This document shows, piece by piece, positions 561 through 24,299 of a DNA stretch of 64,000 bases. The notes beneath the pieces were generated by a model. That model was not told the origin of the DNA. It saw only the letters and a list, made by a program, of their open reading frames with translations, and made no database searches. Source of the stretch: Methylobacterium sp. (lineage in GTDB: Bacteria > Pseudomonadota > Alphaproteobacteria > Rhizobiales > Beijerinckiaceae). The translations under genes were made by a program, and so were the position numbers. How positions within the stretch are numbered: the stretch's first letter is position 1; every line of letters begins with the position of its first letter. Location: the NCBI GenBank assembly GCA_020253445.1, contig JADCBP010000014.1, positions 1 through 64,000 on the forward strand, written 5' to 3'.

Positions 561-666
561 TGGAGCGGAATCCGATCGGATTGAATGAGACCGTCCGTTC
601 TCATTTCTTGTGATTTCACGCATTTTCTTCGACCAACCGGTATCCACCTGGTCAGAAAATGCTCTA
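561..666. repeat. Palindromic dispersed repeat, copy 1
   Basis: The 106-bp segment starts TGGAGCGGAATCCGATCGG and ends with GCTCTA, so its ends are imperfect inverted repeats (TAGAGC-type). It carries the perfect palindrome TCCGATCGGA and shares its first roughly 65 bp with a second copy at 22481. Its right end supplies the TAG stop codon (664-666, minus strand) of the adjacent enoyl-CoA hydratase gene. Similar intergenic elements are scattered through Rhizobiales genomes. No protein is encoded. Confidence 0.75.
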
Positions 667-1455
667 GCGGCCATGATAGACGGGTTTCCGCTTCCCGGAG
701 AAGGCGCGCAGCCCCTCGACCAGATCCTCGCGGCGGGCGTGGACGGCAAAGACCTCCAGTTCATGGGACAAACCGTCATCCAGGCTGAGATCGGGCATCT
801 TGCGGAGCATGCGCTTCACGTCCCGCAGGGCGAGCGGACTGTAGCCAGCCATGGCGCTGGCCAGGCGCCCGGCTTCTGGCAGCAGCTGATCTGCCGGGAG
901 CACCGTGCTTACAAGCCCTGCTTCTGCCCACCATGAGGCCGGCTTCATCGCTCCGGTGAGAAACAGCTCGGCTGCCTTGTTGATCGGAATCTTGCGCGGC
1001 AGGCGGGCCGCCGCTCCGCCACCGGGCAACACCCCATAGCGCAGATGTCCATCGCCGATTTTCGCGCCCTCCGCCGCCAGAACCACATCACAGCACAGGA
1101 CAAGTTCCAGCCCGCCTGCGACCGTTGTGCCGTTGACGGCCGCGATCACCGGGATGTCCAGCGCCTCCAGCCGTGCGAACAGCCCGCTGATCTCCCGGAC
1201 GAATGCCTCCAGCCGGTCCGGCTCGCCAGCTTCCAGCATGGCGAGGAACTCCTTGAGATCGCCGCCGGCACAGAAGGCCTTGCCGGCCCCGGTCAGCACC
1301 ACGGCCCGGCAGGCCAGGTTGGCCGCGATGGTGTCGAGCGCGCTGGCGAGGGCACGGATCAGCCCGACCGAAAGCGCGTTGAGCTGCTCCGGCCGGTTGA
1401 GTGTGACCCAGGCGATCTCATCGCGAATGTCGCACAGAACAGGGCTCTCTGTCAT
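664..1455 (-). CDS. Enoyl-CoA hydratase/isomerase family protein
   Basis: This 263-residue crotonase-fold protein is the last gene of the large minus-strand operon. The N-terminal NRPEQLNALS block and the oxyanion-hole motif AFCAGGDLKEF (about residues 60-70) are typical. The first catalytic Glu of hydratases is kept (GGLELVLCCD), but the second is replaced (GDGHLRYGVLPGGG where PEI-LG-PG is usual). It may therefore be an isomerase, a thioesterase-like member or a hydratase for an unusual substrate. Its start overlaps the stop of the upstream acyl-CoA synthetase gene by 4 nt (ATGA), so translation is coupled. Its stop codon lies inside a dispersed repeat. The family is certain; the substrate is unknown. 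Confidence 0.9.
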   Translation of the reverse strand: MTESPVLCDIRDEIAWVTLNRPEQLNALSVGLIRALASALDTIAANLACRAVVLTGAGKAFCAGGDLKEFLAMLEAGEPDRLEAFVREISGLFARLEALDIPVIAAVNGTTVAGGLELVLCCDVVLAAEGAKIGDGHLRYGVLPGGGAAARLPRKIPINKAAELFLTGAMKPASWWAEAGLVSTVLPADQLLPEAGRLASAMAGYSPLALRDVKRMLRKMPDLSLDDGLSHELEVFAVHARREDLVEGLRAFSGKRKPVYHGR

Positions 1456-2999
1456 GGCGTTCCCTTCTCGGTCAGCATCTTCTCGGCTTCATGGCGCTGG
1501 ATCTTGCCCGTGGTGCTGCGCGGCAGATCCTCATAGGCCACGAAATGCACTTCGCGCGGGCGTTTGTAGCCGGCGAGCGACGCACGGCAGAGCTGATCGA
1601 CATCCGCCGCATCGAGATCATCGGATTGGCGGGCGATCAGCGCGACCGGGATCTCGCCCCAGTGCGCATCCCTCTTGCGCACGATGACCGCGTCGCGGAT
1701 GCGTGGATCAGCCAGCAGGACGCGCTCGATTTCGGCAGGATAGATGTTCTCACCGCCGGATTTGATCATGTATTTCGCGCGATCGACAAAATCGAACGAG
1801 CCATCCGGGTTCCTGATGAACATGTCACCCATGCGGAAGCGGCCACCGGCAAAATCCTTGCGGTTGGTTTCCTGCGCATCCCAATAACCACTGAACAGGG
1901 TCGGACCACGCACCGCCATCTCGCCGGGTTCGCCATCGGGCACCGCGTTGCCCTCGCTGTCGACCAGCCGGATATCGACCAGCGAATTCGCCCATTTCGA
2001 AATTGGGCCAAGCAGGTCCTCCGTTGACATGCGTCGCGCCGAAGCGGGCGGAAGCCCGGTTTCCGTGGAGCCGAAACTGTTGAGGTAGGGCGTGCCGGAC
2101 AGGGTCGCGAGATCAATCGCGAGGGCGCGCGGCACCAGATCGAGCATGGCGCCAATGATGCGGATGCTCCTTACCCGGATCCCTTCGCTGCGCAGAATCT
2201 CCACCACGGGTTCTATCGAGCCCGGCATCAGCAGGTGCCAGCCCAGTGGATAATCTCGCATGACTTCCACGATTTCGCGCGGCTGGAAGCCATCCACCAC
2301 ATGCACAATGCCGCCGGACATCAGCGTGGCCAGCATCTGGTCGGTTGAGCCCATGTGGAACATCGGCGCCCAGGCGATGAAGCCATCATCCCGCGTGATG
2401 CCAAGATCCATCTGGCCCACGGCCATCCGGGCGATTTCGGCGCGATGGCTGATCAGAGCACCCTTGGGCAGGCCCGTCGTGCCGCTGGTGTAGAGAATGA
2501 TCAACCCGGCCTCGCCACTGATCGCCGGAAGGCTGGCCAGCGGAGTGGCGTTCGCAATGGCATGATCGTGGACGTCCTCGATTGTCCAGCAGGGCAGGTC
2601 AAGCCCGGTTGCAGCAAAAGCCGCCTGGAATCGGGCCGAGGCGATGACCAGTGTCGGGGAAACAAGGCGGATGCAATGATCGAGTTCAGTGGAGGATTGT
2701 CGCCAGTTCTGGCAGGCGACGATCAGACCCAGGCATCCCGCCGCCAGCTGGATCTCGATGTACTCGCTGCGATTCTCCGAGAGCAGCGCAATCCGGTCGC
2801 CTTGTTGCAGGCCGAAATCGCGGAAGACGGTCGCCAGCCGGAGCACGCGCTCGCGCAGCGCGCCATAGGTGCTTTCCCGGCCTTTCTCCCGCAGGGCCAC
2901 GGCCTCTGGATTCATCCGGGCCCGGTGCAAGAACAATTCGCTGACGGTTGTGCCACCCGCCATCGCGGTTTCCGGGAGAGTCATGGTGCCGCTTGTCAT
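1452..2999 (-). CDS. AMP-dependent acyl-CoA synthetase (ligase 1 of the locus)
   Basis: This is a class I adenylate-forming ligase of about 515 residues. The P-loop ILYTSGTTGLPKGALISH, the acyl-adenylate motif LNSFGSTETG, the hinge DRAKYMIKSGGENIYPAEIE and the C-terminal catalytic-Lys motif PRSTTGKIQR are all present, so it should be active. The frame opens upstream at 3089, but the first 30 residues are not conserved-looking and Met at 2999 fits the family N-terminus. It would activate a carboxylic acid to its CoA thioester in the cytosol. It is overlapped by the next gene (hydratase) and follows a PaaK-like gene, consistent with one operon with the ABC importer. The substrate is undetermined. 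Confidence 0.92.
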   Translation of the reverse strand: MTSGTMTLPETAMAGGTTVSELFLHRARMNPEAVALREKGRESTYGALRERVLRLATVFRDFGLQQGDRIALLSENRSEYIEIQLAAGCLGLIVACQNWRQSSTELDHCIRLVSPTLVIASARFQAAFAATGLDLPCWTIEDVHDHAIANATPLASLPAISGEAGLIILYTSGTTGLPKGALISHRAEIARMAVGQMDLGITRDDGFIAWAPMFHMGSTDQMLATLMSGGIVHVVDGFQPREIVEVMRDYPLGWHLLMPGSIEPVVEILRSEGIRVRSIRIIGAMLDLVPRALAIDLATLSGTPYLNSFGSTETGLPPASARRMSTEDLLGPISKWANSLVDIRLVDSEGNAVPDGEPGEMAVRGPTLFSGYWDAQETNRKDFAGGRFRMGDMFIRNPDGSFDFVDRAKYMIKSGGENIYPAEIERVLLADPRIRDAVIVRKRDAHWGEIPVALIARQSDDLDAADVDQLCRASLAGYKRPREVHFVAYEDLPRSTTGKIQRHEAEKMLTEKGTP

Positions 3000-3089
3000 T
3001 CTGCTCTGAACCCTCTCGAACGTCCCGGAGCCCGGTTGGGCGCCGCATTCGCGGCATGATGGCGTCTGGCAGCACCCGTGATCAAGCAC

Positions 3090-4322
3090 TCACAACGGCC
3101 GCCGGTCCTCGATCACCACGCCATCCCGCGGCAGGGTTCCGAGCGCGACCCTCTCCACCATCGCATCGAGCTTGAGGATGGCGCGGCTGGCGGCTGCAAT
3201 GACGGCAAGGTCCGGACCATCGCCCGTCTGTTCCAGCCGCAGCGTGAGCTGATCGCGGTCATTCTCCCGACCGATGACGAGGCGCGCCCGCATCGCACCG
3301 GGCAAGGTGGCCAGGAGCTGGGCCACCTGTTCGGGCCGAACAAACATGCCGCGGACCTTCGCGGTCTGATCTGCCCGGCCCATCCAGCCGCTGATGCGCC
3401 GGTTGGTGCGACCGCAGGGCGAAAGGCCGGGCAGGAAGGCCGAAAGGTCGCCGACAGCCAGGCGGATCAGGGGCTTTGCCGGGTCCAGCACGCTCACCAC
3501 GACTTCACCCACCTCGCCTGGCTCCACCGGCATGCCCGTGCCGGGGCGGACCAACTCCACGATCACGCCTTCATCGATCACCATCCCTTCGCGGGCGCTG
3601 GTTTCATAGGCGATGATGCCGCATTCCGCTGTCGCGTAGGATTGATAGGCATCGATGCCGCGACCCGCCACCCAGGCCTGCAGGTTGGGCGGAAACGCGG
3701 CGCCGGAAACGATGGCGCGTTCGAGCGAGGAGGCGTCCCGCCCTTTTTTATCGGCCGCTTCGAGCAGGATCTTCAGGTAATCCGGCGTGCCGGCATAGAT
3801 GCCGGGGCGATAGGCATCGATGAGATCCAGCTGGGCCTCGGTATTGCCCGGACCGGCTGGAATGACAGCGCAGCCCAGGAGGCGGGCACCGCCGTCAAAG
3901 CACCAGCCGCCGGGCGTGAGATGGTAGGAAAAGGTGTTCTGGACGATCTGGCCGGCGCGGATACCGGCCGCAAACATCGCCCGGGCCGCCCTCGATGGGT
4001 CGACTTCCTGCGATTCCGGCTCGAAAATCGGTCCCGGGGACATCATCAGCCGCTTCCAGCCGCCGAGCGGACCCGGCATCAGGCCGCCGAAAGGGGGCCG
4101 GGCTTTCTGAAGCGCGGGCAGGTCTGATTTGCGCAGGACCGGCAGGTCGGCCAGGGCCGAAAGATGGTCGATCGCCCGGGGCTCCACCGGGCCGAGATGC
4201 TCGCGCCAGCCGGGGATGGTCATGGCCGTGGCCAGGCATTCTCTCAGTCCTGCCAGCTGATCGGCCAGCCTTTTGGCGGGGTCACGCGTTTCGAGCGCAT
4301 CGAAGAAGGCCTGACCGGTCAT
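3090..4322 (-). CDS. Phenylacetate-CoA ligase-like (PaaK-related) protein
   Basis: This 410-residue protein has PaaK-family architecture: a YRPGIYAGTPDYLKILLEAA segment, the adenylate-binding-like block AIVSGAAFPPNLQAW, SYATAECG, and a C-terminal GRADQTAKVRGMFVRPEQV segment corresponding to the mini-domain of PaaK. The usual Gly/Ser/Thr-rich P-loop (SSGTTGKP) is replaced by MMSPGPIFEPES around residues 83-94, so ATP handling may differ from classical ligases. It overlaps livF by 4 nt. Working with the importer, it probably acts on the imported acid or an intermediate. Family assignment is good, but catalytic activity is uncertain because of the P-loop. Confidence 0.8.
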   Translation of the reverse strand: MTGQAFFDALETRDPAKRLADQLAGLRECLATAMTIPGWREHLGPVEPRAIDHLSALADLPVLRKSDLPALQKARPPFGGLMPGPLGGWKRLMMSPGPIFEPESQEVDPSRAARAMFAAGIRAGQIVQNTFSYHLTPGGWCFDGGARLLGCAVIPAGPGNTEAQLDLIDAYRPGIYAGTPDYLKILLEAADKKGRDASSLERAIVSGAAFPPNLQAWVAGRGIDAYQSYATAECGIIAYETSAREGMVIDEGVIVELVRPGTGMPVEPGEVGEVVVSVLDPAKPLIRLAVGDLSAFLPGLSPCGRTNRRISGWMGRADQTAKVRGMFVRPEQVAQLLATLPGAMRARLVIGRENDRDQLTLRLEQTGDGPDLAVIAAASRAILKLDAMVERVALGTLPRDGVVIEDRRPL

Positions 4323-5110
4323 GACAGCCAGCGCTTTCGGCGACGATAATGCTTCACCGCGTGATAATCGACGCGCTGATGCCCGCCAAGATAGGCCTCG
4401 ACAACATCGGGGTTGCTGCGCAGCGAGGAGGCATCGCCACTCATCAGGATGCGACCGTTCTCGATGAGATAGCCGGAATGGGCGATTTCGAGGGCGGCCG
4501 TGGCATTTTGCTCCACCAGCAATACTGCCACGCTGCTGGTTTCGTTGATGCGCCGGATGATGTCGAAAATCTCGTCCACGAGGAAGGGCGCCAGACCGAG
4601 CGAAGGCTCATCCAGCATCAGCAGCCGCGGCTTCGTCATGAGGGCCCGGCCGATGGCCAGCATCTGCTGCTCCCCTCCGGAGAGATAGCCCGCCGAGGCA
4701 TTCGCCCGTTCCGCGAGGCGCGGAAAAAGCTGGAACATCTGGTCGATCAATGCGGAAACCTCGCCGCGGCTGCGGTGCATGGTCGCCGCTGCGAGCAGAT
4801 TTTCCCGCGGGGTGAGATGGCCGAAAACCCGCCGCCCCTCGAGGACCTGCACCAAACCCATCCGCACGCGCCTGGGCGGGTCAAGCGCTAGCAGGGATTG
4901 GCCGTCGAACAGGATTTCTCCGCGCGTCACTTCGCCGCGTTCCGGCGCGAGCAAGCCGGAAATGGACTTGAGGACGGTGCTTTTCCCGGCGCCATTGGCC
5001 CCGAGCAAGGTGACGAGGCCACCTTTCGGCACCTCGATTGAGACGCCCTTGACGGCAACGAAGACCCTGTCATAGGCAACTTCGATATTGTTCAGCGTCA
5101 GCAATGACAT
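4319..5110 (-). CDS. livF: Branched-chain-amino-acid-type ABC transporter ATP-binding protein LivF
   Basis: This is a 263-residue ABC ATPase. It has Walker A GANGAGKSTVLKSISGL, the LivF-type signature YLSGGEQQMLAIGRALM, Walker B LLMLDEPSLGLAP and the switch His in LLVEQNA. The frame is open upstream to 5323, but Met at 5110 (MSLLTLNNIEVAYDR) matches the family start and the preceding 200 nt contain the substrate-binding-protein stop and a hairpin. It would pair with LivG (10403-11239) on the cytosolic face of the LivH/LivM permease. Importers of this HAAT family also carry aromatic and other carboxylic acids, which fits the catabolic operon better than an amino acid. Confidence 0.95.
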   Translation of the reverse strand: MSLLTLNNIEVAYDRVFVAVKGVSIEVPKGGLVTLLGANGAGKSTVLKSISGLLAPERGEVTRGEILFDGQSLLALDPPRRVRMGLVQVLEGRRVFGHLTPRENLLAAATMHRSRGEVSALIDQMFQLFPRLAERANASAGYLSGGEQQMLAIGRALMTKPRLLMLDEPSLGLAPFLVDEIFDIIRRINETSSVAVLLVEQNATAALEIAHSGYLIENGRILMSGDASSLRSNPDVVEAYLGGHQRVDYHAVKHYRRRKRWLS

Positions 5111-5155
5111 GGCAATATCCTTTCGCCCCAGCCCGCGGGAGCGCTCCTGGAGGCT

Positions 5156-5181
5156 CCGCCCGGACGAAGTGATCCGGGCGG
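5156..5181 (-). terminator. Intercistronic hairpin between binding-protein gene and livF
   Basis: A perfect 9-bp stem (CCGCCCGGA / TCCGGGCGG) with an 8-nt loop lies just after the substrate-binding-protein stop codon. No T run follows on the minus strand, so it is more likely an mRNA-stabilising or partial-termination hairpin that keeps binding-protein mRNA more abundant than the downstream genes than a full terminator. Confidence 0.6.
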
Positions 5182-5211: not shown

Positions 5212-6477
5212 TTACTTTCCGCTCTTCTTGAACTCCGCCGAATACTTGCGGATTTCGTCCCAGACCACGTCCTGGTTCGCGGAGAACCAACCGGTGACCG
5301 GCACGAACTTGCTGCCATCCCATTGCGCCACGCGGCCCATGCCCCCACCCTGATGGTCTTCCGGGGTGATGGTGGTTGGCGGCAGCAGGCCTTCGGCCGT
5401 GAAGTCCTTGATGGACCGCAGCCCGGCATTGAGCCAGGGGCCCGTGACTGGGCCATTCGGCGACTTCTGGGCGGCGAGGCGGACGCCCTCTGCCATGAGA
5501 GACGCCATTTGCACCCCATAATTGTAGTAGCCTGTCCCGACCTTGGCTTCCGGGCCGGCACCTTTGCCCTTGGCGACCACTTCGGCGAGGATGTCCTTGA
5601 TCACCTTGGGCTCGCGACCGCCGATGCAGGGCTCGATCTTCATCACGCCCTTGGTTGCTGCACGGCCGACAACATCCATATCCGATTCCGAGAGCCAGAC
5701 GCTGGATGAGACCCGGTCCATCGGCAGGCCGTTGCGGATCGCTTCGGAAAGGGCCACGGTCTGGCCAACCGCCGCGCCCCAGAACACGGTGAAATCGGGC
5801 CGCGACCGGCGCACTTGCGGCCAGATCGCGGATTGGTCATTGCCGGGTGGCGTGTAGGGGAAGGCACTGAGGGTGAAGCCCTCGCGCTTGGCCAGCACTT
5901 CGAGGATCGGCAACGGCTCCTTGCCGAAGGGCGTGTCGATGTGCACGAAGGCCAGTCTCTTGCCCTGCAGAGAGCCTTTTTCCAGTGTCTTGAAATGCTC
6001 GACGATCAGACCGGCCTGCGTCCAGTAATTGATCGAAAGCGGCAGCACATAGGGGAAGACCGATCCATCCGCCGCATCCGACCGGCCGGAATAAGCCGTG
6101 ATGAGGTTGATCTTGTCCTCCAGCACACGCGGTACGAGTGCCCGGGCCACCGGGGTCGAGAGCGGATCGATCATCACCGCGCCCTCGCGCTTGCCGCGCT
6201 CATAGGCCTCGATGGCGCGCGGCAGGTCATTGGCATGGTCAGAAACGTCGATCACGATCTTGTATCCGCCGACACCACCGCGCTCGTTCAGCAGGGTGAA
6301 GTAATCCCGCTGGCCCTGGCTGTATTCCGAGGTTACAAACGTGTAGATGCGCGTAAAGTCCATCGGCGCGGAAATCCGCACCACCCTTTCCTGGGCAAAG
6401 GCCCCGGTCGTGCTGATGGACGGCGCCGCAATCCCGGCGGCCGCACTGGCCACGAAACTCCGTCTGGTCATTTTCAT
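5212..6477 (-). CDS. ABC transporter substrate-binding protein (HAAT/LivK-like, Tat-type signal)
   Basis: This is a 421-residue periplasmic binding protein. The N-terminus MKMTRRSFVASAAAGIAAPS has the twin-arginine motif and an alanine-rich core ending near AFAQE, so export by Tat is likely. The mature part is a type I periplasmic-binding (Peripla_BP_6) fold, with RISAPMDFTRIYTFVTSEYS at its start and PLSTPVARALVPRVLE inside. The start at 6477 is set by a strong ribosome site, GGAGGAG, 6 nt upstream; an open frame continues to 6504 without such a site. It lies directly downstream of livM and upstream of livF and should deliver the imported acid to the permease. The ligand cannot be read from sequence. 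Confidence 0.92.
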   Translation of the reverse strand: MKMTRRSFVASAAAGIAAPSISTTGAFAQERVVRISAPMDFTRIYTFVTSEYSQGQRDYFTLLNERGGVGGYKIVIDVSDHANDLPRAIEAYERGKREGAVMIDPLSTPVARALVPRVLEDKINLITAYSGRSDAADGSVFPYVLPLSINYWTQAGLIVEHFKTLEKGSLQGKRLAFVHIDTPFGKEPLPILEVLAKREGFTLSAFPYTPPGNDQSAIWPQVRRSRPDFTVFWGAAVGQTVALSEAIRNGLPMDRVSSSVWLSESDMDVVGRAATKGVMKIEPCIGGREPKVIKDILAEVVAKGKGAGPEAKVGTGYYNYGVQMASLMAEGVRLAAQKSPNGPVTGPWLNAGLRSIKDFTAEGLLPPTTITPEDHQGGGMGRVAQWDGSKFVPVTGWFSANQDVVWDEIRKYSAEFKKSGK

Positions 6478-6507: not shown

Positions 6508-7581
6508 CTATCGTTGCGCATGTCGGAAGGGCCACACGAGCAGATAGGTCCGGACGTTCGAATAAATCTTGGCAAGCCCGTAAGGCTCGTAGAGCAGGAA
6601 GCCGATCACCAGCGCGCCATAGGCCATGAGAGGCAGATGGGCGCGCAGGTCGATCGGCAGGGAAAGGCCAAAGGTGCTCAGGGCATCGCCCAGCGCGTTG
6701 TTGATCACGATGGGCGCAAAAAGCACCAGCGCCGCGCCGAAGAATGGTCCGACCACGCTGCCCAGGCCGCCAACAATCACCATGGCAAGGATCTGGATCG
6801 ACAGATCGAGATGGAACTGGTCCGGTGAGATGGCACGGAGATAGCAGATGGCGAGCACCGAGCCGACCACGCCGCCGATGAATGACGACACCCAGAAGGC
6901 CAGCAGTTTGTATCGCAGGGTTGAGACCCCGAGGATCTCGGCGGCGTAATCCTTTTCGCGCACGGCGGCCAGGGCGCGGCCGAAACTGGTGCGGCGGACA
7001 TTGAGCATGAAAAGGGTAACGGCCGCACAGACCGCCAGCGCGAAATAGTACGTCTCGCGTTCACCGGCCAGCGAGATGCCGAGGAAGCGGACCGGCGGGG
7101 CCTGCAGGGTGGCCAGGGCGCCACCGGAAATAGCGGGGGTCTGGGCGATGACGAAGTCAACGATCGATTGCATCGCCAGGGTCGCCATGGCGAGGTAGAT
7201 GCCTTTGACCCGCAAGGCGGCGGCGCCAAATATGATGCCGATGGAAGCGCTGATCAGCCCGCCGGCGATCATCGCCAGTTCAAGCGGGGCACCGAAGCGC
7301 ACGAGATGCACCGAGCCATAGGCACCCATCGCCATCACGGCGCCATAACCAAGATGAACCTGACCGGCGCCGCCCATCAGCAGGTTCAGCCCCAGCGCGG
7401 CCGAAGACCAGATGAGCCAGGGCAGAAGATACCCGGTGACATAGAGCCGGTCGAAAAGGAAAGGCGCGGCGAGCAGGATGCCCATCACCGTAAGAATGAG
7501 GAAGCGGTCGAAACCAAGCGGGAACAGCTGCCGTTCGTCCTGATAGCGCGTATGGCGGATGCCGGAACGACGGTAGAACAT
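6508..7581 (-). CDS. livM: Branched-chain-type ABC transporter permease LivM
   Basis: This 357-residue inner-membrane permease begins with a hydrophilic N-terminal stretch, followed by many hydrophobic segments starting with ILTVMGILLAAPFLF. The family signatures GLNLLMGGAGQVHLGYGAVMA and the EAA-like loop GRALAAVREKDYAAEILGVS with IVGGLGSVVGPFFGA are present. It is translated immediately after livH (gap of 3 nt between 7585 and 7581) and followed closely by the binding-protein gene. It would form the membrane channel with LivH. Its long charged N-terminus (about 25 residues) is common in this subgroup. Confidence 0.95.
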   Translation of the reverse strand: MFYRRSGIRHTRYQDERQLFPLGFDRFLILTVMGILLAAPFLFDRLYVTGYLLPWLIWSSAALGLNLLMGGAGQVHLGYGAVMAMGAYGSVHLVRFGAPLELAMIAGGLISASIGIIFGAAALRVKGIYLAMATLAMQSIVDFVIAQTPAISGGALATLQAPPVRFLGISLAGERETYYFALAVCAAVTLFMLNVRRTSFGRALAAVREKDYAAEILGVSTLRYKLLAFWVSSFIGGVVGSVLAICYLRAISPDQFHLDLSIQILAMVIVGGLGSVVGPFFGAALVLFAPIVINNALGDALSTFGLSLPIDLRAHLPLMAYGALVIGFLLYEPYGLAKIYSNVRTYLLVWPFRHAQR

Positions 7582-7584
7582 GGG

Positions 7585-8475
7585 TTACACTCTCTCGATA
7601 TGCGCTTCGCCGAAAAGGCCATGAGGCTTGACCAGCAGGGTGACCAGAATGATGACGGAAGCCACGACATCGCGCGTGCCGCCACCGACCAGCGGATCGA
7701 TCAGCCCGGTGGCCAGGCTTTCGGCGACGCCGACAATCACGCCCGCAATCAGCACGCCGCGGATGGAATCGAGGCCGCCGAGAATGGCGATGGCGAGGCC
7801 CTTGATCAGAAGCAGCGAGAGTGACCAATCCACGCCCTGTGTCGCACCCCAGAGGATGCCGGCGGCGGTGGCGGCCATCGCGGCCATGCCCCATGCCACA
7901 GCGATGGCGCGTTCGACGCGGATTCCAACAGACCACGAGGCTGTCTGATCATCCGCCACCGCGCGCATCACCACGCCTTGTCGGGAGCCGAAGAACCAGA
8001 TCGAGAGCAGGATGAGCACCATCGCAATCAAGCCGCCTGTCAGGGTAGCGCGGTTCAACAGGATGTCCCCGATGAAGAGCGGGGCCTGTGGAATGCCGAG
8101 ATCCAGTCTCTTCACCGCTGCACCGAAGACGCCCGGCAACAGGCCGCGCAGGAAGATCTCGAGGCCCAGGGTCAGCATGATGATCATCAGCACCGGGTGG
8201 CCGATCATCCGCCGCAGGGCCATCCGCTCGATCACCAGGCCGAAGCCGAACATCACCGCCATGGCAATCGGGGCGATGACCAGAACCGGAACGGCCATCA
8301 ACGTGGCAAGCGCCCACGCGACATAGCCGGCCGTCATGGCGATTGCGCCCTGGGCGAGATTGACAATGCCGGAGGTCTTGTAGATCAGCACCAGACCGAG
8401 CGAGATCAACGAATACATCATTCCGATGAAAACGCCGTTGATCGCCAGTTCGAGGATCAGAATCCAGTCGATCAT
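7585..8475 (-). CDS. livH: Branched-chain-type ABC transporter permease LivH
   Basis: This is a 296-residue hydrophobic permease. The N-terminal LNGVFIGMMYSLISLGLVLI-type segment (here INGVFIGMMYSLISLGLVLI), the KTSGIVNLAQGAIAMTAGY motif and the C-terminal AILGGLDSIRGVLIAGVIVG are the LivH hallmarks. The start codon overlaps the stop of the upstream long-chain-type acyl-CoA synthetase gene by 4 nt. It forms the LivHM permease heterodimer in the inner membrane. The ligase gene between livG and livH suggests that import and CoA activation are co-expressed. Confidence 0.95.
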   Translation of the reverse strand: MIDWILILELAINGVFIGMMYSLISLGLVLIYKTSGIVNLAQGAIAMTAGYVAWALATLMAVPVLVIAPIAMAVMFGFGLVIERMALRRMIGHPVLMIIMLTLGLEIFLRGLLPGVFGAAVKRLDLGIPQAPLFIGDILLNRATLTGGLIAMVLILLSIWFFGSRQGVVMRAVADDQTASWSVGIRVERAIAVAWGMAAMAATAAGILWGATQGVDWSLSLLLIKGLAIAILGGLDSIRGVLIAGVIVGVAESLATGLIDPLVGGGTRDVVASVIILVTLLVKPHGLFGEAHIERV

Positions 8476-13303: not shown

Positions 13304-13507
13304 GGTCGTGTTCCTCGCTTTAGGTCCGGCTTCGATCCAGACCTGTTATTGAATTCATATCATCAAAGCCATTCCGGCCTGTCAATGCGAATTGCTCAGA
13401 GAAACGTGGCCAAAATCGAGAAAATTCAGCTCGCTGCGGCGCAGCAGAGGATCTGGTTGACAGCCTTCTGAATGAAATTCATTTATTTGTGGATTATGGA
13501 GGATGCC
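13304..13507. promoter_or_regulatory. Divergent promoter region of the two catabolic operons
   Basis: This AT-richer stretch of about 200 bp separates the minus-strand and plus-strand operons. A TTGACA box at 13457-13462 is followed 19 nt later by TTTATT (13482-13487), a plausible sigma-70 promoter for the plus strand. The near-perfect palindrome AATGAAATTCATT (13471-13483) lies between these boxes. A related TGAATTCA palindrome is at 13350-13357, on the side of the acyl-CoA dehydrogenase gene. These are candidate operators for the TetR protein of the locus; that link is inference. Confidence 0.5.
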
Positions 13508-17630: not shown

Positions 17631-18119
17631 ATGCCCTTTACGCTCCTCCTCGATGGCGAGCCCTGCGAGATCGAGATCCTGGCCCGGCAGCCGCGGCTTC
17701 TGCTGGCGGTCAATGGCCGGACCTATCTGGTCGAGCCCAAGGCTGGCGATGGCATGGTGCGGATCGATGGCGAAACGGTTGCCTTTGCCCGCGCCGAGAT
17801 CGGCGAGACGCAGTTCTTGCGGATTGCCGGGCGCACCCATGTGGCGCAGCTGGCGCGCCAGGGTGGCGCCGGGGGCGGCGGGGGCAGCGGTGTCAATGCC
17901 GTGAAGGCGCCGATGCCGGGCCTCGTCATCCGGGTCCACAAGCAGGCGGGGGAAGCGGTGGTGCGGGGGGAAGCCGTGATCACCATCGAAAGCATGAAGC
18001 TGCAGATGGCCCTGAACGCGCCGCGGGATGGCGTGATCGCCACGCTGCTGGCGGAGGAGGGCGGCAGCTTCGACAAGGATGCCGTGCTGGCGCTGCTGGT
18101 CAGCCTCGAGGGGGAATGA
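17631..18119 (+). CDS. Biotin carboxyl carrier protein, separate subunit
   Basis: This 162-residue protein starts at ATG 17631, with a CTGGAGG ribosome site at 17614-17620; a GTG at 17628 is a possible alternative. The first 80 residues match the small domain that links biotin carboxylase and carrier in methylcrotonyl-CoA carboxylase-type alpha subunits. A GGAGGGGGSG hinge follows, then a biotinyl domain (PMPGLVIRVHKQAGEAV) with the biotinylation motif ESMKLQM, Lys near residue 124. Serine replaces the usual Ala in EAMKM. It shuttles carboxyl-biotin between the enzymes encoded on either side. Its stop overlaps the carboxyltransferase start (ATGA). Confidence 0.92.
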   Translation: MPFTLLLDGEPCEIEILARQPRLLLAVNGRTYLVEPKAGDGMVRIDGETVAFARAEIGETQFLRIAGRTHVAQLARQGGAGGGGGSGVNAVKAPMPGLVIRVHKQAGEAVVRGEAVITIESMKLQMALNAPRDGVIATLLAEEGGSFDKDAVLALLVSLEGE

Positions 18120-19729
18120 CGATGGATCGCCTGCAATCGACGATCAGCGTTTCCAGCGAGGCCTTCCGCCGCCATGACGCCCATAACCGACGATTGGTGG
18201 CGGAATTACGCGCCAGGCAGGAGGCCGCGCGGCATCAGCGCCCGGCACGCGATCTCGAGCGGCTGGCCCGGCAGAAAAAGATGCCGGCCCGGCAGCGGAT
18301 CGAAAAGCTGCTTGATCCCGGCACGCCTTTTCTCGAACTCTCCACCCTTGCCGCCAACATGGCCTATGGCGGCGAGGCCCCTTCGGCCAGTTCGATTGTC
18401 GGCATCGGCGTGGTGGCTGGTCGTGAGGTCATGATCCGCGCCGATGACCCGACGGTGAAGGGCGGTGCCTGGTATCCGCTGACGATGAAGAAGATTGTCC
18501 GCGCGCTGGATATCGCGATGGAGAATCGCCTGCCGGTGATTCATCTGTGCGATTCTGCGGGAGGTTTCCTGCCGCTGCAATCCGAATTGTTCCCGGACAA
18601 ATACGTTGGCGGGCGGATTTTCCGAAATCAGTCCTTGTTGTCGAAAATGGGCGTCAAGCAGCTGGCGCTGGTTTTCGGGCATTGCACGGCTGGCGGCGCC
18701 TATATTCCCGGCCTTTCGGATTACAGCGTCATTGTCCGGGGCAGTGGCGCAGTGTTCCTGGGCGGGCCGCCGCTGGTCAAGGCGGCAACCGGCGAGGAAG
18801 TGACGGTCGAAGAACTCGGCGGTGCAGAGATGCATACCAGTGTTTCCGGCACGTGCGACTGGCCGGCCGATAATGAGGAACATGCCATTGCCCTCGGCCG
18901 CGAGATCGTCGCGCAATGGGACCGCCCGAAGAAATGGGAGGCGCAATGGCAGGCGCCTGAGCCGCCCCTCCATGATCCGACGGAACTCTACGGAATCATT
19001 CCGGACGACATCAAGACCAGCTTCGACATGCGCGAGGTGATTGCCCGGATTGTCGATGGCAGCCGCTTTCATGAGTACAAGCCGAATTACGGCACCACGC
19101 TGGTTTGCGGCTTCGCCCATATCTGGGGGTTCAAGGTTGGAATACTGGCCAATAACGGCGTGCTTTTCAACGATTCCTCGATCAAGGGCGCACATTTCAT
19201 CGAATTGTGCGACCAGAACAATACGCCGCTGGTCTTCCTCCAGAACATCACGGGTTACATGGTCGGCCGGGAATACGAGCGGCGCGGCATCACCAAGGAT
19301 GGTGCCAAGATGATCATGGCGCAGACCTGCTCGAAAGTGCCGAAATTCACCGTGATGTGCAATGGCTCCTTCGGTGCCGGCAATTACGGCATGTGCGGCC
19401 GCGCCTTTGACGGGCGGTTCCTGTTCACCTGGCCGAATTCGCAGATCGGGGTCATGGGTGGCGAACAGGCGGCGAAGACCCTCGCCGAGGTCAAGATCAA
19501 CCAGATCCGGCGCAATGGTGGCGATGTCGACCCGCAGGAAATCGAGGCGCTGATCAGCCAGACCCGTGCGGCCTATCAGCAGCAGCTCTCGGCCTATTAT
19601 TCCACATCCGAATTGTGGGATGACGGCTTGCTCGACCCTGTCGATACGCGGAATGCGCTCGGCATCGCCATTTCCGTATCCCTCAACGCGCCAATAGGAG
19701 AACCTGGCTATGGCGTCTTCCGGTTCTGA
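18116..19729 (+). CDS. Acyl-CoA carboxylase carboxyltransferase (beta) subunit, methylcrotonyl/geranyl-CoA type
   Basis: This 537-residue carboxyltransferase has the crotonase-like N and C halves: EKLLDPGTPFLELS, DSAGGFLPLQSELFPDK, GHCTAGGAYIPGLSDYSVIV and GGPPLVKAATGEEV in the N half, then NITGYMVGREYERRGITKDG, GSFGAGNYGMCGRAF and WPNSQIGVMGGEQAA in the C half. These blocks are those of MCC-beta/AtuC proteins rather than propionyl-CoA carboxylase. It transfers CO2 from biotin to the gamma carbon of a 3-methyl-2-enoyl-CoA. Its 3' end overlaps the next gene by 20 nt. Whether the substrate is 3-methylcrotonyl-, geranyl- or another CoA cannot be decided by eye. Confidence 0.93.
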   Translation: MTMDRLQSTISVSSEAFRRHDAHNRRLVAELRARQEAARHQRPARDLERLARQKKMPARQRIEKLLDPGTPFLELSTLAANMAYGGEAPSASSIVGIGVVAGREVMIRADDPTVKGGAWYPLTMKKIVRALDIAMENRLPVIHLCDSAGGFLPLQSELFPDKYVGGRIFRNQSLLSKMGVKQLALVFGHCTAGGAYIPGLSDYSVIVRGSGAVFLGGPPLVKAATGEEVTVEELGGAEMHTSVSGTCDWPADNEEHAIALGREIVAQWDRPKKWEAQWQAPEPPLHDPTELYGIIPDDIKTSFDMREVIARIVDGSRFHEYKPNYGTTLVCGFAHIWGFKVGILANNGVLFNDSSIKGAHFIELCDQNNTPLVFLQNITGYMVGREYERRGITKDGAKMIMAQTCSKVPKFTVMCNGSFGAGNYGMCGRAFDGRFLFTWPNSQIGVMGGEQAAKTLAEVKINQIRRNGGDVDPQEIEALISQTRAAYQQQLSAYYSTSELWDDGLLDPVDTRNALGIAISVSLNAPIGEPGYGVFRF

Positions 19730-20318
19730 CCCAATCCGCTACTGGTTCGATTTTGCCTCGCCCTATGCCTATTTCGCGGTGCCCGGCCTGCAGGAGATCG
19801 CGCGGCGGCATGGCCGCCGGATCGAATACCGGCCCCTGCTGCTCTTCGCGGTTTTCCGGGCGCATGGCATCGCTGCGCCGCTCGAGATTCCCGCCCGAAA
19901 GCGCTATTTCTTCAAGGATATGGCACGGTCCGCCGCCTTTGCCGGCCTGCCACTGGCCGAGCCGGTCAAGATACCCTTCGCGTCCCATCTTGCGGCACGC
20001 CTGTTCTACGGCCTGGCTGCCGAACAGCCAAACCTTGCCGAAGCCTATGTCCAGGCGGTGCTGAGCCGGTTTTTCGGCCAGGGCGAGGACATCGCCTCCG
20101 TGCCAGCCTTGCAGGCGGTTCTGGGCGGCTTGGGAGTCGATCCCGCGCGGGCGGAGGCCCTGATCGCGGCCGGGCGAGACCGATTGTCGGCCTCGGTCGA
20201 GGAGGCGGTGGCCGAAGGGGTGATCGGTTCGCCCTATACGGTGGTGGATGGCGAAGGCTATTTCGGCGCCGACAGGCTGCCGCAGATCGCATGGCGCCTC
20301 GCCCGCGCGGAGAAATGA
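19710..20318 (+). CDS. 2-hydroxychromene-2-carboxylate isomerase-like (kappa-class GST/DsbA family) protein
   Basis: This 202-residue thioredoxin-fold protein has the HCCA-isomerase N-terminus YWFDFASPYAYFAVPGL (the Ser in the SPY motif binds glutathione), the helical insert, and the C-terminal GVIGSPYTVVDGEGYFGADR with cis-Pro region and GxDR ending. HCCA isomerases act on polycyclic-aromatic intermediates, but relatives occur widely in CoA-thioester catabolic operons with unknown roles, possibly glutathione-dependent isomerisation. It overlaps the carboxyltransferase gene by 20 nt and the thiolase gene by ATGA, so it is clearly part of the operon. Confidence 0.88.
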   Translation: MASSGSDPIRYWFDFASPYAYFAVPGLQEIARRHGRRIEYRPLLLFAVFRAHGIAAPLEIPARKRYFFKDMARSAAFAGLPLAEPVKIPFASHLAARLFYGLAAEQPNLAEAYVQAVLSRFFGQGEDIASVPALQAVLGGLGVDPARAEALIAAGRDRLSASVEEAVAEGVIGSPYTVVDGEGYFGADRLPQIAWRLARAEK

Positions 20319-21490
20319 CGATGGATGTGTTTGTTCTCGGAGCGGTGCGCTCCGCGATTGGCGGTTTCGGGGGCGGGCTGGCCGGCTTCTCTCCGGCTGC
20401 GCTCGGGGCGGCGGTCGCGAGGGAGGCCATCCGCCGTGCCGGGGTCAGCCCGGATGAGGTGGGCCATGTGGTGATTGGCAATGTCATCCCGACCGGGCCG
20501 GAAGATGCCTATCTTTCCCGTGCGATCGGTCTGGCGGCCGGCATTCCCAGAGAGGTGCCGGCATTGAATGTCAGCCGGCTCTGCGGCAGTGGCGCACAGG
20601 CCCTGGTCTCCGCTGCGCAGGGAATCGCCTTGGGAGATGGAGAGGTCGCGCTCGCCGGGGGCACGGAATGCATGAGTCGCGCGCCGCATTACCTGACTGT
20701 GGCGCGGTTTGGCCAGAAGATGGGCGATGCCGTGCTGGCGGATGGGTTGACCGGCGTGCTGACCGATCCGTTCGGCTCCGGCATCATGGGTGTCACCGCG
20801 GAAAACATAGCCGAACGCTGGGGCCTTAGCCGCGAGATGCAGGATGCCTTCGCGCTGGAAAGCCAGCGCCGGGCCGCCCTTGCTATCGCGAATGGCCACT
20901 TCCGCGACCAGATTCTGCCGCTGGAGACACAGGTTGGACGCAAGACCGTTCTCGTGGAACAGGATGAACATCCCAGGCCGACCACCACGGCGGAACAACT
21001 CGCCAAGCTGCCGACGATCTTCAAGAAGGGCGGCACGGTCACGGCGGGCAACGCCTCCGGCGTCAATGATGGTGCCGCGGCCATCATTCTGGCCTCAGGC
21101 AGGCGAGCCCGTGCGGGCAAGCCTCTTGCGCGGGTTCTCGGTTATGCCCATGCGGGCGTCGATCCCGCGATCATGGGCACGGGGCCGATCCCCGCTGTCC
21201 GGGCGCTGCTGGCCCGGACAGGGCTGAAGGCCGAGGATTTCGACGTCATCGAATCGAACGAGGCCTTCGCCGCACAGGCCCTTTGCGTGAACCGCGAGCT
21301 GGGGCTCGACCCAGCCAAGGTCAACCCGGATGGTGGTGCCATTGCGCTAGGCCATCCGGTCGGAGCGACCGGGGCCATCCTCGTCGTCAAGGCCTTGTCC
21401 TGTCTCCAGCGCACCAACACGCGCAAAGGCCTGATCACGATGTGTATCGGTGGCGGGCAGGGCATCGCCCTGGCGATCGAGCGGGTGTGA
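20315..21490 (+). CDS. Acetyl-CoA acetyltransferase family thiolase
   Basis: This is a 391-residue thiolase. The nucleophile is Cys90 in NVSRLCGSGAQALVSAAQG. The His motif is GGAIALGHPVGATGA and the second Cys lies in MCIGGGQGIALAIERV. NEAFAAQALCVNRELGL is the usual thiolase block. The start ATG at 20315 overlaps the preceding stop (ATGA). It would release acetyl-CoA from a 3-oxoacyl-CoA at the end of the branched-acid pathway. Substrate chain length is not evident. Confidence 0.94.
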   Translation: MTMDVFVLGAVRSAIGGFGGGLAGFSPAALGAAVAREAIRRAGVSPDEVGHVVIGNVIPTGPEDAYLSRAIGLAAGIPREVPALNVSRLCGSGAQALVSAAQGIALGDGEVALAGGTECMSRAPHYLTVARFGQKMGDAVLADGLTGVLTDPFGSGIMGVTAENIAERWGLSREMQDAFALESQRRAALAIANGHFRDQILPLETQVGRKTVLVEQDEHPRPTTTAEQLAKLPTIFKKGGTVTAGNASGVNDGAAAIILASGRRARAGKPLARVLGYAHAGVDPAIMGTGPIPAVRALLARTGLKAEDFDVIESNEAFAAQALCVNRELGLDPAKVNPDGGAIALGHPVGATGAILVVKALSCLQRTNTRKGLITMCIGGGQGIALAIERV

Positions 21491-21544: not shown

Positions 21545-22483
21545 ATGAAGACCGCCTTTGGCTGGGACCTTGCGCTGCCGATCATCACGGCGCCGATGTT
21601 CATTGTCTCGGGCCGTGATCTTGTGCTGGAGGCGGTTAATGCCGGCTTTGTCGGCACGTTTCCCGCGCTCAATCTCAGGACCACGGACGAATTCCGCTGC
21701 CGGCTCGAAGAGATCGGGCAGGCGCTGGGCGATCGACCGCCGGAACGGCGGGTCTTCGGGGTGAACCTTGTCGCCCATCATTCCAACCCGCGGCTCGCGG
21801 CGGATCTCGAGGCGGTGGTGGCCGCAAAGGTGCCCCTTGTCATCACCTCACTTGGCGCGGTGAGCGAAATTGCCCGGGCGGTGCAGGGCTATGGCGGCAT
21901 CATCCTGCATGATGTGATCAACCGCCGGCATGCCGAGAAGGCGGCGGAAGCGGGCGTCGATGGCCTTGTGCTGGTCGCTGCCGGCGCGGGTGGTCATGCG
22001 GGGCTGCTGAACCCCTTCGCCTTCATCGCCGAAGTCCGGCAGTTCTTCCGGGGCGCCATTGCGCTGGCCGGCGCTCTATCCACCGGCGCGGATGTTGCCG
22101 CGGCCCTGGCGGCAGGGGCGGATTTCGCCTATATGGGAACGCGCTTTATTGCCACGGCCGAAGCCAATGCCAAGGCGGGTTACCGTGAGATGCTGGCCCG
22201 GAGCGGCACGGATGATGTTGTCTACACCGCTGCAGTCTCCGGGGTGGCTGGCAATTTCCTGGCACCGTCGCTGCGGGCGCATGGGATTGATCCTGCAGCC
22301 CTGACAGCGACGAACAAGCAGGCGATCAAGCTCGATCTCGACCCCAACACGCGGAAATGGGTCGATCTCTGGGCGGCGGGGCAGGGTGTTTCCGCCATTG
22401 CCGATGCGCCGCCCATGGCCGAGTTGGCGCAACGACTGCAGGATGAGTTCGAAGCAGCCCGACGGCGGATCGCGTCGCTTTAG
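21545..22483 (+). CDS. Nitronate monooxygenase-like FMN protein
   Basis: This 312-residue TIM-barrel flavoprotein belongs to the 2-nitropropane dioxygenase/NMO family: PIITAPMFIVSGRDLVLEAV at the start, GVDGLVLVAAGAGGHAG for phosphate binding, GALSTGADVAAALAAGADFAYMGTRF near the FMN phosphate site and SGVAGNFLAPSL. A GGAGCG-type leader (from 21532) precedes the ATG. Such proteins often accompany acyl-CoA degradation genes, where they may be enoyl reductases or detoxify propionate-3-nitronate; the true role is not known. It is the last gene of the plus operon, and its TAG stop is formed by the first bases of a dispersed repeat. Confidence 0.88.
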   Translation: MKTAFGWDLALPIITAPMFIVSGRDLVLEAVNAGFVGTFPALNLRTTDEFRCRLEEIGQALGDRPPERRVFGVNLVAHHSNPRLAADLEAVVAAKVPLVITSLGAVSEIARAVQGYGGIILHDVINRRHAEKAAEAGVDGLVLVAAGAGGHAGLLNPFAFIAEVRQFFRGAIALAGALSTGADVAAALAAGADFAYMGTRFIATAEANAKAGYREMLARSGTDDVVYTAAVSGVAGNFLAPSLRAHGIDPAALTATNKQAIKLDLDPNTRKWVDLWAAGQGVSAIADAPPMAELAQRLQDEFEAARRRIASL

Positions 22484-22633: not shown

Positions 22634-23425
22634 TTATTCGAATAGGGCAGGGCGCCGGGCGAGGAAGGCGGTAATGCCCTCGCGAAAATCCGCCCCGGCG
22701 GCATGGGCCATGAAGCCGGCCTTTTCCAGATCGAATTGCGCGTCCAACGTCCCGGTCATCGCCGCACGGACGAGCCGCTTGATGCCGGCCTGTGCCTTCC
22801 GGGCGCCGGAGGATAGCTGTTCGGCCAGCGTGAAGGCGCGGTCCATCAGCTGGTCTGGCGGCACCACTTCGTTGACCATGCCGAGCGTCAGGGCCGTTTC
22901 GGCGCTGATGCGCTCGGGCGAGAGCAGGAAGGCCAGCGCCCGTTTGGGGCCGAGCAACTGCGTGACGCTCCAGGAACAGCCACCATCGGGGTTGGTGCCG
23001 ATCTGGGCATAGGCCGATACGAAATGGGCATCCGCCGCGGCAATGCAGAGGTCGGAACCCAAAGCGAGGCTCACCCCGCCCCCGGCCACCGGGCCCTGCA
23101 CGGCAGCGATGACGATCTGATCGCAGACCGCGATCCGCCGCATCGTGCCGTGGAACAGGTCGATGAGGCGGCCTGCCGTCGCGCTGGCATGCTCAAGATC
23201 CGCGGCGAAGGCGGAGAGATCGCCCCCCGCCATGAAGGACCGCCCCTCCCCGGAGAGGATGACGACCCGGATGCCAGCGTCGGCGGTAAGGGCGTCGATT
23301 GCCGCAAGGAGGGCACGGCCCAGCGATTCGTCCAGGGTGTTGAGATTCTTCGGGCGGTTCAGCCGGATATGCCCGATCCGGTCACGACGTTCAACGATGA
23401 CACAGTCTTGATGATGGGCGTTCAT
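22634..23425 (-). CDS. Enoyl-CoA hydratase/isomerase family protein (PaaG/ECI-like)
   Basis: This 263-residue crotonase-fold protein has RLNRPKNLNTLDESLG, RSFMAGGDLSAFAADLE and GPVAGGGVSLALGSDLCIAA, followed by YAQIGTNPDGGCSWSVTQLLG. Both hydratase Glu positions are lost. An Asp is present in the NPDGG loop, as in PaaG-type delta3-delta2 isomerases, so double-bond isomerisation is more likely than hydration. It is transcribed from its own promoter region (23426-23564), just downstream of the tetR gene on the same strand. An isomerase would fit a substrate with pre-existing double bonds. Confidence 0.9.
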   Translation of the reverse strand: MNAHHQDCVIVERRDRIGHIRLNRPKNLNTLDESLGRALLAAIDALTADAGIRVVILSGEGRSFMAGGDLSAFAADLEHASATAGRLIDLFHGTMRRIAVCDQIVIAAVQGPVAGGGVSLALGSDLCIAAADAHFVSAYAQIGTNPDGGCSWSVTQLLGPKRALAFLLSPERISAETALTLGMVNEVVPPDQLMDRAFTLAEQLSSGARKAQAGIKRLVRAAMTGTLDAQFDLEKAGFMAHAAGADFREGITAFLARRPALFE

Positions 23426-23469
23426 TTAGGTTCGTTCCTCATCCAATGCTGCCGGGCCTGAAGATCGCG

Positions 23470-23517
23470 CTTGCAAGAGTGATTGCAAGATTGATTGCAA
23501 GAGTGCTTGCGAGAGAG
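23470..23517. repeat. Four 12-bp tandem repeats upstream of the isomerase gene
   Basis: Units cttgcaagagtg, attgcaagattg, attgcaagagtg and cttgcgagagag follow one another exactly. The core TTGCAA recurs every 12 bp and the first unit holds the palindrome CTTGCAAG. The array lies 45 bp from the start of the downstream isomerase gene, in the intergenic region between it and tetR, so it may be a regulator-binding array. Confidence 0.7.
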
Positions 23518-23549
23518 ACCGCTCTTGAATGAGAAACCACCTCAATGAG

Positions 23550-23558
23550 TGAAATTCA
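23550..23558. promoter_or_regulatory. Putative operator TGAAATTCA
   Basis: The 9-bp palindrome TGAAATTCA at 23550-23558 is identical to the core of the palindrome in the divergent promoter at 13473-13481. It sits between tetR and the isomerase gene it precedes. Reuse of the same motif in two promoters of one locus suggests a common regulator, probably the TetR protein encoded next to it. Confidence 0.4.
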
Positions 23559-23564
23559 ATAATG

Positions 23565-24299
23565 TTATGCAAGGCGCTGGGCGTCGAGAACCGCTTTCAG
23601 CCGGGCTGCGGTCAGTTCCAGTTCCGCCGTCACTGCCTCCAGCCGTCTTGCGAGCTGTGCCTGCTCGCTCTCGACCTTGGGCGTGGCGACGCCCAGCCCG
23701 CTGACCAGGATATCGATGATACCATCCGTCACCGCGGCTGCATCCAGTTCGCCCTCGCGGCGCAGGAAGGCCCAGGCTCGATGTTCAATCGCGCCATAGA
23801 CCAGATCGCGGACCAGGATCGGCGAAAGGCCGGGCCGAAATTCCTGATTGGCGATTGCACGTTTAACGACTTCCATGATCCGGTTGGAATAGGCGCGGTT
23901 CAGGCGAAGGAAGTTGCTCTCGCGGTAGCCGGGCTCGAGACGGATCTCCTGGAGCAGCAGGCGCGCAAGGCCAGGCTCTGACTTGATGGCCATCAAGTGC
24001 TGGTGGATCAGGAACCGGATTTGATTCCATGTGCCCTGCACGGCCGGAAAGTCGGCCTCGTGCCGATCCAGCATGCTGACATACCATTGTTCGACCACCC
24101 GGGTCAGAAGGTCGCGCTTGTTCGCGAAAAACCGGTAGATGCTGCCTTCCACCACGCCAGCGCGATCGGCGATATCGGTGATCAGCGCGTCGTTATAGCC
24201 CTTCTCGTCGAAGATGGCCTTGGCGGCAGCCAGAATGTCGGCAATTCGCTTTTCCGGCGGAAGGCGTCGGACCTGACGACGTGTTTGGACCTTGGACAT
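23565..24299 (-). CDS. TetR/AcrR family transcriptional regulator
   Basis: This 244-residue protein starts at Met 24299 (MSKVQTRRQVRRLPPEKR). The N-terminal TetR helix-turn-helix covers about residues 15-65: ILAAAKAIFDEKGYNDALIT, then DIADRAGVVEGSIYRFFANK. The C-terminal ligand domain is helical and ends in a coiled-coil-like stretch, QAQLARRLEAVTAELELTAA. TetR regulators of related branched-chain acid and terpene clusters repress in the absence of acyl-CoA intermediates; by position this one probably controls the whole locus. The frame is open upstream to 24374, but that part has no HTH relevance. Confidence 0.9.
   Translation of the reverse strand: MSKVQTRRQVRRLPPEKRIADILAAAKAIFDEKGYNDALITDIADRAGVVEGSIYRFFANKRDLLTRVVEQWYVSMLDRHEADFPAVQGTWNQIRFLIHQHLMAIKSEPGLARLLLQEIRLEPGYRESNFLRLNRAYSNRIMEVVKRAIANQEFRPGLSPILVRDLVYGAIEHRAWAFLRREGELDAAAVTDGIIDILVSGLGVATPKVESEQAQLARRLEAVTAELELTAARLKAVLDAQRLA

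Follow-up and report, generated by a model that had tools for sequence, protein, structure and literature searches.

What does a bacterium degrade with a locus that joins parts of the leucine/isovalerate (Liu) and acyclic terpene (Atu) pathways to a Liv-type importer? The question is raised by nucleotides 664-24299 of a 64 kb stretch of Methylobacterium sp. DNA (assembly GCA_020253445.1, contig JADCBP010000014.1), hereafter the window, which runs from base 1 of contig C6 in a genome of 3.28 Mb, its left edge being the contig edge. All the proteins named in the original prediction, which was made from the sequence alone, were recovered with Pfam, NCBIfam and a codon-usage gene caller, giving 21 genes in two divergent operons and a TetR/crotonase pair. 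With a probability of about two in three, the locus is a catabolic island of patchy occurrence, probably under its own regulator, that serves an imported 3-methyl-branched carboxylic acid larger than isovalerate. Homology gives good support to the chemistry class, gamma-carboxylation.

The predicted gamma-carboxylase and its partner dehydrogenase

The window carboxyltransferase (CT) belongs to a third gamma-carboxylase clade, which is neither that of LiuB and 3-methylcrotonyl-CoA carboxylase (MCC) nor that of AtuC and geranyl-CoA carboxylase (GCC). In a 63-row CT tree, from which the fragment rows L054 and L116 were left out, it lies inside a clade of 26 rows (100/100), apart from the MCC-type rows, and a separate 26-row clade holds the AtuC-type proteins, including that of Pseudomonas (L114). 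The same separation was obtained by a quick method for 80 rows (35 class III, 19 LiuB and 20 AtuC-like), for which near-identical taxa were thinned and 20 of 29 LiuB loci chosen, 18 of these being entered together with the genome's own LiuB. Class III denotes a CT at least 60% identical to that of the window. Loci were taken in if their AtuA was at least 45% identical; the counts leave out the window itself, and L040, a contig without a CT, is tallied among the loci without class III.

According to excerpts of the geranyl-CoA carboxylase structure paper (PMC4673880), substrate size is set by a pocket residue that is Phe in MCC and Gly in GCC, and in MCC a three-residue insertion precedes this Phe. 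The position was placed by alignment to 3u9r, the offset to the human numbering being our own reckoning. It holds Phe in 19 of 19 LiuB rows (MCC 191) and Gly (29) or Ala (1) in the AtuC-like rows, all 30 of which have the three-residue deletion. The class III rows combine a small residue (Gly in 18, Ala in 20; Gly165 in the window) with the MCC insertion, which is kept in 36 of 38. The Gly or Ala predicts a carboxylase substrate larger than 3-methylcrotonyl-CoA. The biotin carrier is encoded by a separate gene in 37/37 class III loci as against 1/70 other AtuA loci, the single case (L055) having no CT on its contig.

The acyl-CoA dehydrogenase is nearest in the PDB to isovaleryl-CoA dehydrogenases (IVD) and, in alignments to 4o5m, 4kto and 1ivh, keeps the GLDxER stretch, whose Glu we take to be the catalytic residue of this type. 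In a quick-method tree of 76 of the 96 rows, which carried long-branch warnings, it falls in a 31-row clade that adjoins two LiuA rows (the genome's own on C13, and L099) and excludes them, and it is also outside the AtuD rows. The original prediction had named as contrary to it a CT and dehydrogenase within the LiuB and LiuA clades, with leucine-cluster neighbours; this arrangement was not found, two LiuA rows being available to the comparison.

A paralogous Liu cluster acting on isovaleryl-CoA and 3-methylcrotonyl-CoA would explain the IVD-type dehydrogenase, the MCC-length CT (MCC is also its best PDB match) and the LiuC-like hydratase, and Liv importers take their name from branched amino acids. 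It is nevertheless very improbable, given that both enzymes lie outside the LiuA and LiuB rows, that the MCC Phe is replaced, that the locus has AtuA and no HMG-CoA lyase, and that the genome keeps its own Liu genes elsewhere (LiuA-, LiuB- and LiuD-like genes on C13; HMG-CoA lyase and a LiuC-like hydratase on C14).

A genuine Atu pathway comes closer, one that acts on citronellate or geranate as its natural substrate, as it does in Pseudomonas, and that differs in sequence by divergence only. The window shares with the Atu cluster AtuA, an AtuB-like short-chain dehydrogenase/reductase (SDR), a hydratase, a dehydrogenase, an acyl-CoA ligase, TetR and the GCC-like Gly/Ala at the size-limiting position, and the core parts recur in Marinobacter loci and in Pseudomonas L114, where the order is AtuA, SDR, CT, acyl-CoA dehydrogenase, enoyl-CoA hydratase (ECH) and biotin carboxylase. 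This explanation is unlikely, however: the CT and the dehydrogenase are separated with high support from the AtuC and AtuD rows, the GCC deletion is absent from the window as from the 36 class III rows above, and AtuF joins in one chain the biotin carboxylase and carrier that are separate in the window. The window also has a Liv-type importer and NMO-like, DsbA-like and PaaK-like accessories, and no counterpart of AtuG was identified in the locus. The expectation that the locus would match no described cluster thus stands in part: it is neither the leucine nor the described Atu cluster, but its core (AtuA, AtuB-like SDR, gamma-carboxylase and hydratase) is Atu-like, which makes it a variant and not a separate kind, and its accessories are patchy.

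AtuA and the carbon-carbon cleavage step

The window AtuA is 51% identical to that of Pseudomonas L114 and matches the fold of subunit A of the citramalate lyase CmlAB (PDB 9erq, 9evf), which was crystallised with ADP and pyruvate; a PDB search gave no meaningful match for the C-terminal domain. The predicted substrate differs from that of CmlAB in being a CoA ester. The simplest reading is that AtuA is likely the C-C lyase, and excerpts of PMC4847356 assign the Atu-route cut to it. A bolder analogy, in which the AtuA family comprises nucleotide-binding C-C lyases and the fused AtuA here cuts 3-hydroxy-3-alkylglutaryl-CoA with coupling to ADP/ATP, is tentative and rather doubtful. A literature search found no paper that treats AtuA together with citramalate lyase; subscription papers and preprints were outside its scope, and this is no proof of novelty.

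The same genome encodes a CmlA/CmlB-like pair on C3 (G000:C3:1650-11211, L188), where another AtuA-family gene (443 aa) stands beside a DUF4387 partner (105 aa). Its neighbours are a class III CoA-transferase, an HMG-CoA lyase-like gene and three genes that resemble tripartite ATP-independent periplasmic (TRAP) transporter genes by size and N termini; L188 is perhaps a pathway for citramalate or a related acid.

A profile search found no HMG-CoA lyase-like match among the 21 genes. The original prediction was right that the locus lacks this enzyme; in the genome, one is encoded on C14, next to a LiuC-like gene, with a weaker match just over the cut-off on C3. Among the AtuA stretches examined only G040b carries a relative (E 1e-10), so the absence here is not odd. 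It is somewhat unlikely that the cut is made by LiuE, an HMG-CoA lyase with its gene elsewhere, or by some other enzyme, and that AtuA has a different role. Matches to HMG-CoA lyase are found in the window genome and in most other cluster genomes, and LiuE of P. aeruginosa reportedly has this lyase activity (Chavez-Aviles, 2010, known to us by title alone). Set against this are the fold match of AtuA to a named C-C lyase subunit and four near-complete cluster genomes, G006, G090, G105 and G140 (all 99-100% complete), in which nothing exceeded the curated cut-off of the NCBIfam HMG-CoA lyase model. The model was run on these four match-less genomes and on two positives, of 18 cluster genomes, and scored above cut-off in the window genome and in G004.

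Spread, unity and transport

An AtuA match at 1e-140 or better is present in 21 of 397 genomes drawn from the order and AtuA in 4 of 17 genomes of the genus, its own included. In two congeners synteny is near-complete: G004 and G006 keep the cluster from TetR through the last crotonase, except that no thiolase match was found in the G004 locus, nor on the short G010 contig. In other families the order is rearranged and the content conserved. This combination is more than chance would give, and the locus is one unit with patchy spread. The window and G004, but not G006, share an ImuB/DnaE2 flank on the TetR side.

The original prediction had listed the Liv importer among the components that Liu and Atu loci do not normally include. 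A co-occurrence check shows that within the order it is conserved alongside the AtuA/carboxylase locus. Of 17 order-level class III loci, 16 have the two Liv genes together with the FadD11-like ligase, the exception being a 7.8 kb contig, while the order's AtuA loci without a class III CT have Liv genes in 1/11 and the ligase in 0/11. Because the stretches scored were of unequal length, the count was repeated for loci in which AtuA is flanked by 15 kb or more on each side: LivH/M and the ligase were present in 12 of 12 class III loci, as against 1/5 (Liv) and 0/5 (ligase) of the others. Two Liv lineages are tied to the locus, about 70-84% and 33-55% identical to that of the window, and G105 and G140 hold both. 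That unrelated operons are adjacent by chance, as the variable accessories and rearranged gene order might suggest, is scarcely credible when the same parts recur in all 12 of these loci and with two Liv lineages.

Like other HAAT/Liv importers, that of the window comprises LivFGHM (two ATPases, two permeases) and a Peripla_BP_6 binding protein; unlike them, it has an acyl-CoA ligase gene inside its operon, and its predicted ligand is a branched acid and not an amino acid. Other transport genes stand near the same core elsewhere: LivF and LivG after AtuA in L040 (an alphaproteobacterial metagenome-assembled genome whose contig ends early), a DctP-type gene with two neighbours of permease size in Tianweitania sediminis (L041), and an annotated TRAP transporter on a Sulfitobacter alexandrii plasmid (L228). 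The DctP-type and TRAP genes fit organic-acid import.

AtuA was found on plasmid records in 64 cases, all less than 60% identical to that of the window. Plasmids L228 and L229 (Roseibium), whose hosts were sampled from dinoflagellates, preserve the core gene order, and in L229 the CT is followed by an IS3 transposase and a group II intron. The window genome also has a second Liv, FadD11-like and PaaK-like cluster (G000:C17:176000-191200, L035). Besides an MCC-like carboxylase in which the Phe is kept, this cluster encodes a RipC/CitE-like lyase (below cut-off) and a MaoC hydratase (PF19315). Its CT groups, on a long branch, with one found beside the class III carboxylase in Roseobacters.

Several observations weigh against the proposed island. 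In both CT trees the junction of the AtuC-type and class III clades is a meeting of long branches, so that the nearest clade is unsure and it is the separateness of the clades that counts; in two class III rows the MCC insertion is partly missing. AtuA is only 18% identical to citramalate lyase and carries PF23544 where the latter has its DUF4387 subunit B, and the same chemistry is therefore not proven. Excerpts of a review (PMC4097962) assign the lyase step to LiuE. An HMG-CoA lyase match at 1e-30 is present in 14 of the 18 cluster genomes, many 35-41% identical, with none in four. One of these four, G090, has a canonical MCC, and LiuE absence alone is therefore not conclusive, other explanations being possible; this one-contig genome has an MCC beta subunit 79% identical to the window genome's LiuB. 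The SDR, considered below, is without the usual catalytic Tyr/Lys pair. Finally, the tie to Liv, strong in one order, is rare elsewhere: outside the order a class III CT was found in 20 of the 80 named loci listed, and among these class III loci Liv genes are present in 1/20 (L047, Paracoccus alkenifer) and, within 8 kb, in 0/17. The named-locus stretches span at most 10 kb on either side and many Liv genes in the order begin about 10 kb from AtuA, so the link outside the order is undercounted.

Gene content, regulation and the proposed route

The left operon runs down from 13303, from the dehydrogenase to ECHa, and the right operon up from about 13496, from ECHb to the NMO-like gene; ECHc and TetR follow on the opposite strand (Table 1). 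Within operons most neighbouring genes overlap or are separated by only a few bases, with gaps of about 100 bases at most.

Table 1 Features of the locus and the evidence for each. Positions are those of the window.
Feature	Position	Strand	Basis
ECHa, enoyl-CoA hydratase/isomerase family, last in left operon	664..1455	-	PF00378 5.9e-55; gene call
ACS1, AMP-dependent acyl-CoA ligase, TSGTTGLPK loop intact	1452..2999	-	PF00501 2.2e-56 on longer open reading frame (ORF); motif
PaaK-like protein, degenerate ATP loop	3090..4322	-	NF041878/TIGR02155 matches far below cut-off; alignment
LivF-type ATPase	4319..5110	-	PRK11614 210.6 bits on longer ORF (below cut-off, 441); gene call
Periplasmic binding protein (Peripla_BP_6), twin-Arg-like N terminus	5212..6477	-	PF13458 1.2e-35 on longer ORF; sequence
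LivM-type permease	6508..7581	-	PF02653 2.2e-35
LivH-type permease	7585..8475	-	PF02653 5.2e-24
FadD11-like AMP-dependent acyl-CoA ligase, inside Liv operon	8472..10406	-	PF00501 2.5e-58 on longer ORF; NF038343 252 bits (below cut-off)
LivG-type ATPase	10403..11239	-	PRK11300 231.9 bits on longer ORF (below cut-off, 362); gene call
AtuB-like SDR, His/Arg replacing Tyr/Lys	11251..12102	-	PF13561 3.2e-47; alignment
IVD-type acyl-CoA dehydrogenase	12095..13303	-	Best PDB match 4o5m; tree
Divergent promoter region, candidate operators TGAATTCA (13350) and TGAAATTCA (13473)	13304..13495		Palindrome scan
ECHb, LiuC/AtuE-like hydratase, start probably 13496	13472..14290	+	PF00378 1.7e-54; alignment
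AtuA, predicted C-C lyase	14295..16145	+	PF07287 (7.9e-138) and PF23544
Biotin carboxylase subunit, carrier on separate gene	16142..17626	+	PF02786/PF00289/PF02785 on ORF 16076-17626
Biotin carrier protein, ESMKLQM biotinyl motif	17631..18119	+	PF00364 6.5e-15 on longer ORF; motif
CT, Gly165 at MCC-Phe191 position	18116..19729	+	PF01039 6.8e-132; trees; pocket table
DsbA/HCCA-isomerase-like (kappa-GST-like) protein	19710..20318	+	PF01323 4.5e-29
BktB-like 3-ketoacyl-CoA thiolase	20315..21490	+	PRK09051 586.5 bits (above cut-off) on 20291-21490
NMO/FabK-like flavoprotein	21545..22483	+	PF03060 7e-19; 4iql 4.7e-17
ECHc, crotonase fold, isomerase-like	22634..23425	-	NCBIfam oxepin_alt/PaaG-type matches below cut-off
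TetR-ECHc intergenic region, candidate operator TGAAATTCA (23550)	23426..23564		Palindrome scan
TetR-family regulator	23565..24299	-	PF00440 1.5e-13 on longer ORF

We infer a route in which the Liv-type importer would take up the branched acid and the FadD11-like ligase and/or ACS1 would form its CoA ester. The IVD-type dehydrogenase would give a 3-methyl-2-enoyl-CoA, the methyl group of which would be carboxylated at the gamma carbon by the split biotin carboxylase (biotin carboxylase, carrier and CT), and ECHb would hydrate the product to 3-hydroxy-3-alkylglutaryl-CoA. From this AtuA, and not HMG-CoA lyase, would release acetate to leave a 3-oxoacyl-CoA for cleavage by a thiolase, while the SDR, NMO-like protein and other crotonases probably handle side-chain double bonds. 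The methyl-branched or isoprenoid acid named in the original prediction is consistent with the enzyme families and with one pocket residue, and on that basis we infer it as the probable class of substrate. Two specific acids were considered. Abscisic acid has a 3-methyl-2,4-dienoic chain; it is not claimed, the excerpts consulted from the literature on its bacterial breakdown having given no link to these genes. Phytol-derived acids are a guess, as unproven as abscisic acid.

Residues expected of the individual enzymes were compared across relatives. In ECHb the two positions, which we presume to be the classic crotonase Glu sites, are Gly (Ala in one row) and Glu in 42/42 rows at least 40% identical; the genome's own LiuC-like protein, judged by eye, shares this Gly-Glu arrangement. 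In the SDR, His and Arg replace the usual Tyr and Lys in all 50 aligned rows at least 34% identical, the window included, and among these are the genes that follow AtuA (the AtuB position) in Pseudomonas, Marinobacter and Alcanivorax. Loss of the pair argues against an alcohol dehydrogenase of the ordinary type, and conflicts with the role in excerpts of PMC4847356, where AtuB appears as a citronellol/citronellal dehydrogenase, 'characterized or tentatively identified'. Three ligase-like proteins are encoded, as predicted, of which the PaaK-like protein may not be a working ligase: its ATP loop is degenerate (SPGPIFEP), the usual Ser/Thr-Gly loop being gone in 6/6 aligned rows, the window included.

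Only some relatives have the accessory genes (PaaK-like, HCCA-isomerase-like, NMO-like and thiolase), and 9 of the 17 order-level class III loci have an ACS1 homologue at least 50% identical. The NMO-like and DsbA-like proteins and the extra crotonases are unusual for straight isoprenoid acids and would serve a ring if the same chemistry acted on a cyclic or steroid-type acid with a branch or ring at the beta carbon, such as a sterol side chain or cyclic terpenoid acid. The class III carboxylase of Solimonas sp. (L060), moreover, has thiolase-like and HMG-CoA-synthase-like genes for neighbours. Such a substrate is unlikely, since the accessories are not general (NMO 10/17, DsbA 7/17 order-level class III loci) and no ring-cleavage oxygenase is among the 21 genes. 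The neighbours in the Solimonas locus (strain SE-A11, 4578-8826) are two thiolase-like proteins, a small ORF and an HMG-CoA-synthase-like protein that scores below cut-off. In G105 a transglutaminase-like protein (PF01841; L154:5481-6131) is encoded between the DsbA-like and thiolase genes, and in G140, G394 and G063 a gene of similar size follows DsbA.

The TetR protein would repress the promoters of the locus, self-regulation being probable. A palindrome scan of the promoters left only short TGAA(A)TTCA sites, at 13350 and 23550 between genes and at 13473 just inside the called start of ECHb. TGAAATTCA occurs four times in the window (0.36 expected), once in the FadD11-like gene and once in a distant gene, and TGAATTCA with its A/T flanks once, which is equalled by 19 of 100 shuffles. 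Such a palindrome lies between cluster genes in 5 of 23 other loci scanned, and is at most a candidate operator.

Beyond TetR lies a methyl-accepting chemotaxis protein (24808-26619), with none called at the same place in G004, which could sense the same acid. The ImuB-like and DnaE2-like DNA polymerase genes of the shared flank lie at 27693-32746, and a fragment of an IS4/5-type transposase marks the left edge of the window (3-524).

The locus defines a third gamma-carboxylase clade with a pocket rule open to experiment, and supplies an importer and a candidate operator as handles on the natural substrate. The citramalate lyase fold match and the genomes without HMG-CoA lyase above the cut-off make the dispute between LiuE and AtuA directly testable. 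If the proposed lyase role of AtuA is right, annotations of 'AtuA family protein' could give way to a reaction. Were the nucleotide-coupled cut by AtuA, a rather doubtful proposal, to hold, part of the ATP spent in carboxylating the methyl branch would be recovered, and the third gamma-carboxylase clade, the AtuA lyase and the dedicated importer would together constitute a general route for imported beta-methyl acids.

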